Shown here in pieces: positions 9,060 to 11,532 of a stretch of 11,532 bases of DNA. The notes under the pieces are model-generated. The model saw nothing but the letters and a program-made list of their open reading frames with translations, had not been told where the DNA came from and did no database searches. Each line of letters starts with the position of its first letter. The first letter of the stretch is position 1. The position numbers and the translations under genes are program-made. The DNA comes from Thermococcales archaeon 44_46 (GTDB lineage: Archaea > Methanobacteriota_B > Thermococci > Thermococcales > Thermococcaceae), in NCBI GenBank assembly GCA_001507935.1, contig LGET01000035.1, positions 1 to 11,532 of the forward strand, written 5' to 3'.

Positions 9060-9341
9060 TTGGAAATAACAATTGAGAAATTCAAGCCGAAAGTTACCCG
9101 ACCCTTCAAGAGAAAAAACGAATACTGGGTGAAGCTCATAGATGAGAGTGGCGAGTATATAATGAAGTTCAAAACGCCACTGGAGGCTGAAGATGCGGTA
9201 TACGGGCTTCTGGATCTTCAGGTTTATGGGGGCAAAGTTAAGTTAAAGCTTAGAGAGGGAAACGTAATAGAAGACATCCAAATTCTTGAGCTATACAAAC
9301 CCTCTGCAAAGGAGCTTGTAGATGAATATTTTAGCGAATAA
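9060..9341 (+). CDS. Conserved-looking hypothetical protein, 93 residues
   Basis: I do not recognise this protein. A TTG start at 9060 is chosen because a perfect GGAGGTGA (9047-9054) lies 5 nt upstream. An in-frame ATG at 9045 sits immediately before that site and would have no ribosome binding site of its own. The first ~75 residues alternate hydrophobic and charged positions ([34 protein letters not shown]), suggesting a small beta-rich fold. The tail ([14 protein letters not shown]) should be a short helix. There are no cysteines, membrane helices or signal peptide. It is cytoplasmic by appearance. It diverges from the ABC operon and is followed by two T-runs before tfe, so it is probably transcribed alone. 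Confidence 0.78.
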
Positions 9342-9350
9342 CTAAAGTGC

Positions 9351-9376
9351 TTTTTTGTACATTAGGCTTCTTTTTT
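9351..9376 (+). terminator. Oligo-T terminator after the 9060 gene
   Basis: Two T6 runs (9351-9356 and 9371-9376) lie just after the stop at 9341 and before the tfe promoter. Archaeal RNA polymerase terminates at such coding-strand T tracts without needing a hairpin. Confidence 0.55.
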
Positions 9377-9382
9377 CAACAA

Positions 9383-9395
9383 AAACCTATATATA
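9383..9395 (+). promoter_or_regulatory. TATA box of tfe
   Basis: AAACCTATATATA gives a predicted start near 9415 and an unusually long ~90-nt leader before the ATG at 9506. A second A/T-rich candidate, AAATATAT, lies at 9407-9414. Confidence 0.5.
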
Positions 9396-9505
9396 CTATG
9401 GAGCCCAAATATATTATTGGTAAAGACCGTATTGATAAAAAAACTGTGCAACATTTCACGAATCAATTTCTTAAAATAAAATCCAAAAACCCGGAGGTCT
9501 TACTT

Positions 9506-10021
9506 ATGGCCAAAAGAAAAAACCAAGAGCTCCTGAAATTCGCAGAGGAAATAGGTGGGGAAGAAGCGATTGAAGTAATCAAGGCTCTCGAAAAGAAAAA
9601 GGAGGCAACCGATGAAGAGATAGCGGAGATGACTGGAATTAGGGTAAATACTGTCCGGAAAATCTTATACGCTCTCTATGACAATCAGCTCGCAGAGTTC
9701 AGGAGGGTTAGGGACAAAGATACAGGATGGTACTACTATTACTGGCGCCTCGAAACAAAGAGACTACCAGAACTCATTAGAGCCAGAAAAATGCAGGAAC
9801 TCAAAAAGCTAAAAGAAATGCTCGAGGAAGAAACTAAAGAAATCTACTATCACTGCGGAACTCCCGGCCATCCAAGACTGACTTTTGATGAAGCGATGGA
9901 ATATGAGTTCAGATGCCCCCTGTGCGGTGAAATGCTTATGCAGTATGACAACAACGAGATAGTAAAAGAACTTCAAGAAAAAATTAAGAAGCTTGAAAAA
10001 GAACTTGGAATAAAGGCTTAA
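9506..10021 (+). CDS. tfe: Transcription factor E, alpha subunit (TFIIE-alpha homologue)
   Basis: 171 residues. Residues ~1-88 form the extended winged helix ([20 protein letters not shown], then [10 protein letters not shown]), which binds RNA polymerase and the upstream fork. Residues ~88-112 are a charged linker. A zinc ribbon follows (about 114-145) and a coiled coil of K and E closes the protein. TFE helps open promoter DNA with TBP and TFB. The second zinc half-site is normal (C137, C140). The first has C117 followed by H122 instead of CxxC. The ATG is set by GGAGGT (9493-9498) 7 nt upstream. The frame stays open to 9347, including an in-frame ATG at 9398 that would add 36 residues, but nothing supports that start. 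DUF2110 follows 33 nt downstream. Confidence 0.95.
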
Positions 10022-10054: not shown

Positions 10055-10786
10055 ATGGAGATTGTTATTCTCGAGAAGATATATGGAGATAGAAGCGGTT
10101 TTGAAAAGCTCGATAAAAAGCTCAAGTCTCTTATAGGAGACTTAGAAGTTTCATGGAAGATAGGAATTACTCAAAAACAGTGGGTCAAAATAACCTTAGA
10201 AGGAGAAGATGAAGAGGTTTCTGCAAACCTCATACGAGAGGAGTTCGGAGAGGTTCCCTATAAGCTAAGCAGCGTAAAAGAAGGAGAACTATACAGGGGA
10301 AGGTTCATTGACCTCGGAAAAGTAGGTTATGGAGTCTACGTTGACATCGGAATATTCTCGCCGGCTCCAAAGGATGTGTTGGTTCCCCTTTATTACCTCA
10401 AGTCCCTCTTTGGAGATAAGCCGGCTAGACAGCTCATAAGGGAGTTCGGCTGGATAGATCACCTGCCTGTTGAGCTGGAAATCACAAAAGTGGAATTTGG
10501 GGCAAGGGAGATAGAAGGAAAATTCAGTGAAAAACAGCTGAGGCAAATAAAACAGTGGACAACCGATGGATATGACAAGATATTCGTTGCCGGCACAATA
10601 AGTGAAAAGGTCGAAGAAGCACTAATAAAAACAGGACATTCAAGAGATGTAAAAAGACTCGAAGAGCTTGGACTTATGGAAACTCTTTTGGTTCTTAAGA
10701 AGGGCACACAAGCCCCCGGAATTATTAAAGAGATAGGACCCCATCTAAAAGCCGCGGTGTTTGGGGCAATTAAGTTTGAGGACTGA
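10055..10786 (+). CDS. DUF2110 family archaeal protein
   Basis: 243 residues from the ATG at 10055. GGGGATGAT, a near match to GGAGGTGAT, lies just upstream; a GTG at 10034 has no site. The sequence matches my recollection of DUF2110, an archaeal family of unknown function often encoded next to tfe. Residues ~77-112 (GELYRGRFIDLGKVGYGVYV, DIG) have the glycine and valine spacing of an S1/OB-type beta strand pair, which would suggest RNA or nucleic acid contact. This is inference from pattern only. There are no cysteine clusters or membrane helices. Co-transcription with tfe points to a role around transcription or RNA. The structured non-coding block begins right after its stop. Confidence 0.8.
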   Translation: MEIVILEKIYGDRSGFEKLDKKLKSLIGDLEVSWKIGITQKQWVKITLEGEDEEVSANLIREEFGEVPYKLSSVKEGELYRGRFIDLGKVGYGVYVDIGIFSPAPKDVLVPLYYLKSLFGDKPARQLIREFGWIDHLPVELEITKVEFGAREIEGKFSEKQLRQIKQWTTDGYDKIFVAGTISEKVEEALIKTGHSRDVKRLEELGLMETLLVLKKGTQAPGIIKEIGPHLKAAVFGAIKFED

Positions 10787-10826
10787 CCTCCCCCCTGCCG
10801 TGAAGAGTGAGGGTTCCAACGAGTTA

Positions 10827-10898
10827 ACCCCTCGCCAAGGGCGGGAAGGTTTGAGGGGTCTCATCAAAACCCACTAATAATGGGTTTCTCAACCCCTC
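10827..10898. repeat. Structured module 1
   Basis: CCT (10830-10832), GC stem CGCC/GGCG (10833-10836/10840-10843), the core GCGGGAAGG (10841-10849), then the hairpin AAACCCA/TGGGTTT (10867-10873/10881-10887). An outer ACCCCTC/GAGGGGT pair (10827-10833/10853-10859) encloses the first part. Confidence 0.65.
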
Positions 10899-10919
10899 TG
10901 GCCGGGTCTTCGGCCAGTT

Positions 10920-10982
10920 ACCCCTACCTCCCGCAAGAGCGGGAAGGCTCAGGGTTATCGCTCAAACCCCATCCCGGGGTTT
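10920..10982. repeat. Structured module 2
   Basis: CCT (10927-10929), GC stem CCCGC/GCGGG (10930-10934/10939-10943) with an AAGA loop, the core GCGGGAAGG (10939-10947), then the hairpin AAACCCC/GGGGTTT (10964-10970/10976-10982). An outer ACCC/GGGT pair (10920-10923/10952-10955) corresponds to the outer stem of module 1. The core starts exactly 98 nt after that of module 1. Confidence 0.7.
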
Positions 10983-11026
10983 CCAATTATTCAGGAGGGT
11001 TTTTAGAGGACGCTTAACAGCGTCAT

Positions 11027-11074
11027 CCTCCCGATGGCGGAAGGACACGTTTGAAACCCTCTTCTCATCGGGTT
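11027..11074. repeat. Structured module 3, most diverged
   Basis: CCT (11027-11029), short stem CCG/CGG (11031-11033/11038-11040), the core GCGGAAGG (11037-11044) with one G fewer, then AACCC/GGGTT (11055-11059/11070-11074). The core again starts 98 nt after the previous one. An alternative long-range stem CCCGATG/CATCGGG (11030-11036/11066-11072) competes with the short ones. Confidence 0.5.
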
Positions 11075-11114
11075 GTTTTTGAGTAGCCTTCTCAAGGCTT
11101 TATTACGCTTTTGA

Positions 11115-11131
11115 GTTTAAAAAGATTTCGG
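11115..11131 (-). promoter_or_regulatory. Strong BRE/TATA promoter facing the hairpin region
   Basis: The minus strand reads CCGAAATCTTTTTAAAC: a BRE-like CGAAA joined to a TTTTTAAA TATA box, the form expected of strong archaeal promoters, including those of stable RNAs. The predicted start is near 11093. No protein-coding gene lies downstream on this strand within the spacer. Confidence 0.55.
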
Positions 11132-11190
11132 TCATTTAATGGTAAGGTTTTCAGGTTTTGCACCCCCTACCTACCTAAAGGGCGAAGCTT

Positions 11191-11532
11191 TCAAGAAAAA
11201 AACGTAAGCTCACATATCAGTCTAACTACAAGAGCCGATGATACGTATTGAACCATTGGGAAGAGCTGAGGAGAGTAGGCCAACAATGGAACGAAGACAA
11301 TCAGAAGCCAGAAGAACAAGGCCTTCCCCCCTCTCATATTTAACAGAGATCTTCTGAAGTTAAACAGTAGATAAAGTATTAAAATCAGCTGGAGGATTCC
11401 TTCCTTCAAGAATGCAAAAAGAGCGCTCGGATTGAATGAGAAAGATACAGTTGGAATGGAAAAAACAGTTATACCCAAAACGAAGAAAGCAAAACTTAAG
11501 CCGACGTACATTAAGTTTCTTATGGACTTTGT
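11191..11532 (-). CDS. C-terminal part of a multi-spanning membrane protein, N-terminus outside window
   Basis: 113 codons are visible and the frame is open to the right edge, so the start lies outside. The ATG at 11509-11511 has no ribosome binding site and is probably internal. About four hydrophobic segments are seen: MYVGLSFAFFVLGITVFSI, ILQLILILYLLF, ALFFWLLIVFVPLLAY and a final YVSSALVVRLICELTFF. A basic loop (NFRRSLLNMRGGK) follows the second, probably cytoplasmic. I do not recognise the family. The last codons are written by a T7 run (minus strand, 11202-11196), which may also act as terminator. The protein ends abruptly, right after its last helix, next to the palindrome-rich block, so its C-terminus may have been altered by an insertion; this is not certain. 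Confidence 0.6.
   Translation of the reverse strand, partial: TKSIRNLMYVGLSFAFFVLGITVFSIPTVSFSFNPSALFAFLKEGILQLILILYLLFNFRRSLLNMRGGKALFFWLLIVFVPLLAYSPQLFPMVQYVSSALVVRLICELTFFS

Follow-up and report, generated by a model that had tools for sequence, protein, structure and literature searches.

The window, i.e. the whole 11,532-nt stretch analysed here (contig LGET01000035.1 of Thermococcales archaeon 44_46), carries a DUF2110 gene and a convergent neighbour gene, and between the two lies an element positioned 3' of the tetranucleotide TTAC, inside which both gene stops now fall (Table 1). Directly upstream of the DUF2110 gene is a gene for TFIIE alpha (transcription factor E; 9395–10021). A preliminary description of the window had singled out 10827–11074 as a tandem set of three RNA-like modules spaced 98 nt apart; that region lies inside the element, while the feature itself is larger, comprising the entire element plus the flanking TTAC and guide.

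Table 1. Coordinates of the element, its parts and its surroundings in the window
Feature	Positions	Strand	Basis or remark
Whole element, 421 bp	10783–11203	-	Left end 11203, right end 10783; homology to copies of approximately 420–450 bp
TTAC, host bases abutting the left end on its 5' side; insertion motif and putative TAM	11204–11207	-	
Start of left-end palindrome, GAAAGCTTCGCCCTTT...	11177–11192	-	Same motif in other copies; window copy decayed farther along
BRE/TATA-like box CGAAATCTTTTTAAA, presumed promoter	11116–11130	-	Kept in the consensus
Expected RNA start	near 11093–11100	-	Position of the BRE/TATA-like box
5' structured RNA domain, approximately 150 nt	10956–11106	-	Model R1, 110.3 bits (window copy among the training sequences); covariation in 46 sequences
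3' domain, omega-RNA scaffold/right end	10783–10960	-	Homology to tnpB elements of the same genome
tnpB remnant within the 3' domain	10827–10958	-	tblastn to the 435-aa C123 TnpB
Right-end terminus GGAGGTCAG, scaffold end/guide start	10783–10791	-	Invariant alignment end
Predicted guide, antisense to the 3' end of the DUF2110 gene	10763–10782	-	Adjoins the right end; putative function
DUF2110 gene, TGA stop (10784–10786) within the right end of the element	10055–10786	+	Pfam DUF2110 N, central and C domains
Convergent neighbour gene, stop within the left end of the element	11191–11532	-	ORF list; no match in Pfam scan
First GCGG(G)AAGG core	10841–10849	unassigned	Other two cores at 10939–10947 and 11037–11044

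Borders and insertion site of the element

Joining the two flanks without the element gives AAGTTTGAGGA followed directly by GTAAGC, a clean in-frame junction, so that the DUF2110 gene without the insertion would end ...KFEE-TAA; the corresponding genes of two relatives end in KFEE-TGA (L015) and KFE-TAA (L009). The element was not found at 20 DUF2110 loci of named relatives, 17 of which extend 142–4000 nt past the gene, as judged by reading, by the 5'-domain model and by blastn (stray matches elsewhere only, of 17 and 24 nt). Among 92 copies of the element, TTAC preceded 32 of the 45 left ends recognised with a strict pattern, compared to 3 of 90 control slots; a looser pattern gave 38 of 62 ends, several of which it misread. 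These counts, together with the frame restored at the window site, are as for an IS200/IS605 insertion 3' of a fixed short motif without target duplication. The subterminal palindromes of IS200/IS605 elements are present at both ends in the consensus of 83 copies and are imperfect at both ends of the window copy. The BRE/TATA-like box was recovered from 69 of the 92 copies by a loose pattern and from none of the controls; in T. kodakarensis, the TATA box is reported at a median of 23 bp before the transcription start site (PMC4247193). At the other end, an alignment of copies selected for GGTCAG terminates invariantly in GGAGGTCAG.

Several smaller arrangements of the same ends were observed. 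Fragments of approximately 50 bp at L007 (C115:11421–11503), L041 (C221) and L042 (C190) consist of a left-end hairpin followed immediately by GGAGGTCAG, resembling fused element ends, and at L005 (C202:4516–4635) GGTCAG ends face outward on both sides, i.e. right ends in inverted arrangement. Contig C115 (L038) holds a whole tnpB-less copy (approximately 9244–9685) in addition to the short fragment (11421–11503), with approximately 1.7 kb between them. Antisense frames of at least 60 codons ending in the right-end TGA were found in 19 of 81 copies compared to 14 of 162 other frames (p = 0.0025, the copies not being independent), an excess from which the mobile element perhaps tends to land at gene ends.

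The insertion is shared with one genome of the same genus (G077), with 1 difference across the 421 bp of the element, and the first 23 bases past the right end, guide included, are identical. The flank is identical over 329 bp on one side; since near identity continues into the flank, the similarity reflects recent sharing and not constraint. This bears on a reading in which the host has adopted the element as a regulatory RNA, either acting antisense on the DUF2110 mRNA or guiding TnpB to bind without cutting, as domesticated TnpB-like repressors bind rather than cut. Such a role would suit a guide that is antisense to the 3' end of the DUF2110 gene and an element common to both genomes, but the near identity extends beyond the element, it was not found at the 20 DUF2110 loci of relatives, and the guides differ among most of the 83 copies, as expected of a mobile element. 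We consider host adoption very improbable.

Farther into the flank, 19 differences separate the window from G077 in 10567–10759, compared to a single one over the 773 bp that begin at 10760. TnpB of S. islandicus is described as cutting 15–28 nt from the TAM (PMC10640517), and the switch in divergence, which falls near the expected TnpB cut and the distal end of the guide, could be a footprint of homing. Little weight is placed on it, as the two genomes are mosaic over the whole window: between the window and its G077 counterpart (L250), long stretches of near identity are interspersed with divergent ones (up to approximately 10%).

The right half and its relation to tnpB

The right half of the element (10783–10960) shares 77–78% identity with the 3' ends of tnpB elements from three contigs of the same genome (C123, C179 and C48). 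Contig C123 encodes two TnpBs, both with OrfB_IS605 and TNB domains in Pfam, the C48 tnpB has an internal stop and that on C179 is cut off at the contig end. Within this half, the tnpB remnant corresponds to residues 392–435 of the 435-aa C123 TnpB (61% identity, E = 1.6e-9, tblastn), that is, to the last 44 codons, past the TNB domain (residues 319–385). The omega-RNA (reRNA) of TnpB in IS200/IS605 elements (ISDra2 and others) is described as deriving from the right end, with a scaffold that ends at the terminus, flanking DNA as the guide and a short motif at the left end (PMC8612924). As in such an RNA, the scaffold of the window element is homologous to the right end of a tnpB element and the predicted guide follows it; overlap with the 3' end of a whole tnpB in cis is lacking in the window element. 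There is no PF07282 match on its contig, and all eight PF07282 places in the genome are on other contigs. Taken with the borders, the assignment of the region as a non-autonomous mobile element of IS200/IS605 type, with an omega-RNA domain and lacking a working tnpB, is well supported.

Rfam searches of the minus strand gave a match to the full sot0042 model over the 3' domain (24.5 bits) and a match to HgcC (23.7 bits), for which the whole 130-nt model aligns to the 3' domain and the first bases beyond, GGAGGTCAG included. Both scores lie below the cut-offs for membership (sot0042, RF02656, 88; HgcC, RF00062, gathering cut-off 50). The former family is reportedly a sense overlapping transcript. 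At E 0.001, there were 14 HgcC-like matches elsewhere in the same genome (best, 45.9 bits; several at contig ends), and among the eight that were read, some lie after the zinc-finger end of tnpB genes. The best HgcC score among nine loci tested was 38.2 bits, and relatives with and without a linked tnpB also give sub-threshold matches to sot0042 and HgcC. For the 5' domain, no Rfam family matched up to E 10. The earlier statement that no named archaeal RNA matches the region is half right: it stands for the 5' domain, and the 3' half resembles two families below their cut-offs. A readable scaffold ending in GGTCAG was present at 9 of the 20 tnpB loci fetched for comparison (L191–L194, L196–L198, L200 and L203). 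At L079:2651–2706, sub-threshold matches to the archaeal C/D box sRNA families sR14 and snoPyro_CD were observed.

RNA structure and the three cores

Compared to dinucleotide shuffles, folding energies gave z = −2.6 for the plus strand, −4.8 for the minus strand and −5.2 for an RNA-sized piece of the minus strand. An RNA on the plus strand, the one implied by the preliminary description, was set aside on its weaker folding and the lack of a plus-strand Rfam match; the homologous RNA with its promoter-like box is on the minus strand. No tRNA was found in the region, and a coding function for the 5' domain is unlikely by eye, as the alignment contains many small indels.

Alignments were built from the 83 copies with GGTCAG, reduced to 69 by dropping five short ones and near-duplicates; set A1 comprises 53 of the 69 and set A2 46 of the 53. 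RNAalifold on 53 sequences returned 49 pairs, 21 of them with at least one both-side change, and in a mutual-information scan canonical pairs were among the top column pairs (228–237, 106–111, 229–236 and 260–270), with several non-canonical column pairs also high. For the 5' domain (46 sequences), 68 both-side cells were counted compared to 28.7 ± 5.1 in shuffles and 13–32 in slid structures, controls that ignore ancestry, and 90.0% of cells pair, a share that does not exceed 53% in slid structures. Of the 31 pairs, 14 show a both-side change, not far above the 7–12 of slid structures, and 1 of 500 shuffles was as high; the covariation score was reached by 0 of 500 shuffles. The fit of a different 5' hairpin is about as good, leaving the first helix of the domain unsettled. 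The window copy forms 22 of the 31 consensus pairs, with helix 5 mostly broken, and is partly decayed.

Part of what had first been noted at the three cores was reproduced. The motif GCGG(G)AAGG occurs exactly three times on the plus strand of the window, starting at 10841, 10939 and 11037, 98 nt apart twice, its hairpins are real, and folds of the region are more stable than those of dinucleotide shuffles. The hairpins, though, are successive and different parts of one minus-strand RNA and not three copies of one module. A repeat search over 10500–11532 (at least 14 nt) returned two-copy families only (10836–10849/10934–10947 and 10921–10941/11164–11184) and no three-copy repeat. In the 53 aligned sequences (window included), scored on the letters CCTTCC, by which the window itself has spacings of 97 and 98, the two spacings range over 88–107 and 86–98 and coincide in 0 of 53, so that a 98-nt period does not characterise the family. 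The commonest letters at the second and third core positions of this alignment are mostly unlike those of the window. Homologous units at a constant period, as in a tandem repeat or CRISPR-like array, were not found. The exact double spacing of the cores notwithstanding, a new repeat class of tandem structured RNA modules has next to no credibility, given the missing three-copy repeat, the variable spacing and the hairpins being parts of a single RNA. Since the modules are not homologous, comparing one with another is not covariation; covariation does occur between whole copies of the element in this and other genomes, and it is on these that the earlier suggestion of a structured RNA under selection for base pairing holds.

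The element family, its partners and known systems

Homologous structured copies in related genomes, which the preliminary description had called for, are numerous. With the left half of a sister copy as query, at least 105 matches were found in 37 of 94 Thermococcaceae genomes, of which 92 were used further and 13 weaker ones left out; GGTCAG follows 100–330 nt past the 5' domain in 83 of the 92. The 5'-domain covariance model (46 sequences, 31 pairs) extended this to at least 200 matches in 52 of the 94 genomes, with 0 matches in the other 21 of the 115 genomes of the phylum that were examined. A search of plasmid and phage collections with the L077 element (431 bases) gave no match.

The copies are largely devoid of tnpB. 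A TnpB search of the 92 element segments found nothing in 87, while the same probe finds TnpB in 54 of 55 tnpB loci, and the remaining five (the window, L140, L141, L143 and L153) have only residues 388–435 of 435; a tnpB gene occurs in the flank of 1 of 91 copies (L154). The 3' halves of L140, L141, L143 and L153 are 78–99% identical to that of the window and those of the other 78 copies at most 69%. The five stub-bearing copies share the middle scaffold of tnpB-linked elements, and the commoner tnpB-less middle scaffold is unlike the tnpB-linked ones that were read. On these likenesses, the subfamily to which the window belongs is read as having probably had its right end swapped in from a tnpB element. 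A separate search with the commoner scaffold yielded 30 loci, with TnpB in 0 by probes that included four extra open frames (putative TnpB) and the 5' domain in 28; the two loci without it (L219 and L224) lie at contig ends. Conversely, the 5'-domain model had no match at E ≤ 0.1 in 25 tnpB loci (weak ones, E ≥ 0.15), and the only 5'-domain-like blastn matches in 55 tnpB loci were one of 33 nt at L165 and those of 21 nt at the C123 tnpB promoter (L046 and L063). The match of 33 nt (L165:1175–1205; 88%, E = 3e-5) is at a locus with a different TnpB.

These observations weigh on the possibility that the element is a dead relic of internal deletion, MITE-like, mobilised through its ends by TnpA only and with a passive omega-RNA part. 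The IS605-like ends, the degenerate window copy, the retained tnpB stub and the fused-end fragments of the same genome would all be at home in such a relic. Passive filler would not, however, keep pairing as the 5' domain does (68 both-side cells compared to 28.7 in shuffles) or keep a promoter-like box, nor would a remnant of tnpB elements be expected to hold a 5' domain that those 25 loci lack, and we regard a relic as unlikely.

Potential protein partners are widespread. Matches to PF07282 occurred in 91 of the 94 genomes (80 over cut-off) and close relatives of the C123 TnpB in 59. Of the 52 genomes with the 5' domain, 41 contain such a relative, compared to 18 of the 42 without the domain (Fisher p = 5e-4; Spearman 0.57), a comparison that ignores ancestry and general IS load. 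Within the largest genus, the 5' domain occurs in 24 genomes with the C123-type TnpB and 4 without, and the numbers for genomes lacking the 5' domain are 13 and 20. No close C123-type TnpB was found at E 1e-100 in 11 of the 52 genomes with the 5' domain, among them G082, G083 and G007, with at least 7, at least 6 and at least 4 matches in assemblies that are 82%, 77% and 98% complete. Loading by a C123-type TnpB is not certain, as in 78 of 82 other copies identity to the 3' half of the window copy is no higher than 69% and the middle scaffold is a different one. TnpA (PF01797) was not found in the window's own genome (79% complete) and is present in 25 of the 94 genomes; some TnpA genes directly adjoin a C123-type TnpB, e.g. 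in G077, which means that complete elements exist.

The best explanation, to which we assign a probability of roughly 0.7, is a non-autonomous guide-RNA element whose RNA is used in trans by a resident TnpB. From its own promoter, the element would give a minus-strand RNA of approximately 330 nt, with the 5' structured domain first, then the omega-RNA (reRNA) scaffold ending at the right end, and finally flanking DNA as the guide; the last 44 tnpB codons would serve as part of the scaffold and encode no working protein. A TnpB supplied from another locus of the genome would bind this scaffold and cleave guide-matching DNA next to TTAC, which is the same site without the element, and repair after the cut would copy the element back, or into an empty allele. 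The borders of the element, the homology of its 3' half to tnpB right ends, the missing catalytic part of TnpB, the wide distribution and the conserved structure were observed directly. Transcription at this locus, loading of TnpB in trans, cutting, homing and the role of the 5' domain are what we infer, and function in trans would be the most likely mechanism.

A broader proposal, offered tentatively and at slightly less than even odds, is that dedicated trans-acting guide RNAs form a family scattered through the Thermococcaceae. Its members would have lost tnpB, acquired a promoter and a novel 5' RNA domain, and live as parasites of resident TnpB, homing into empty alleles with a guide that specifies their own insertion site. 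The 5' domain would allow production or loading of the RNA in the absence of a tnpB transcript, and the subfamily of the window would have taken its right end and stub from a tnpB element. TnpB itself is reported to obtain its guide by processing its own mRNA (PMC10278001). A large natural guide-RNA family apart from a nuclease gene would illustrate how the two can become separated, as must have happened at some point in the history of CRISPR-Cas12, and tnpB-less elements would supply thermophilic trans-acting scaffolds for study.

There may also be a connection to RNAs already described. The genome G024, which we take to be T. kodakarensis KOD1, has a 5'-truncated copy of the element within an apparently interrupted hypothetical gene, and this copy is perhaps, on our assumption, HgcC4 in TK1679. 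A dRNA-seq study of T. kodakarensis from 2014 reports five HgcC RNAs, three in transposase genes and two outside (PMC4247193), and tnpB-less elements could explain those outside. The same study is the reference given in Karvelis 2021 for non-coding RNAs from tnpB transposons. Within the literature searched, which took in subscription papers and preprints on TnpB to a small extent, no paper covered both HgcC and TnpB.

Compared to HgcC (RF00062; Pyrococcus and Thermococcus), the 3' domain of the element aligns over the whole model, but it scores below the cut-off, and the 5' domain is not covered by HgcC. Similarly, the 3' domain matches the full sot0042 model (RF02656), but far below its cut-off (24.5 compared to 88). 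MITE-like non-autonomous IS605 derivatives keep their ends, have no working protein gene and need TnpA in trans. The element likewise keeps its ends without a working protein gene and would depend on TnpA from elsewhere; unlike these derivatives, it also keeps a structured RNA, a promoter-like box, a guide and a 5' domain not found in the 25 tnpB loci. The likeness to the TnpB omega-RNA lies in an element RNA from the right end, with the scaffold running to the terminus, a guide from the flank and a left-end motif. The differences are that tnpB is gone save for a 44-codon stub (in the window and four copies), that the element has its own promoter-like box and that an extra 5' domain of approximately 150 nt replaces the rest of tnpB.
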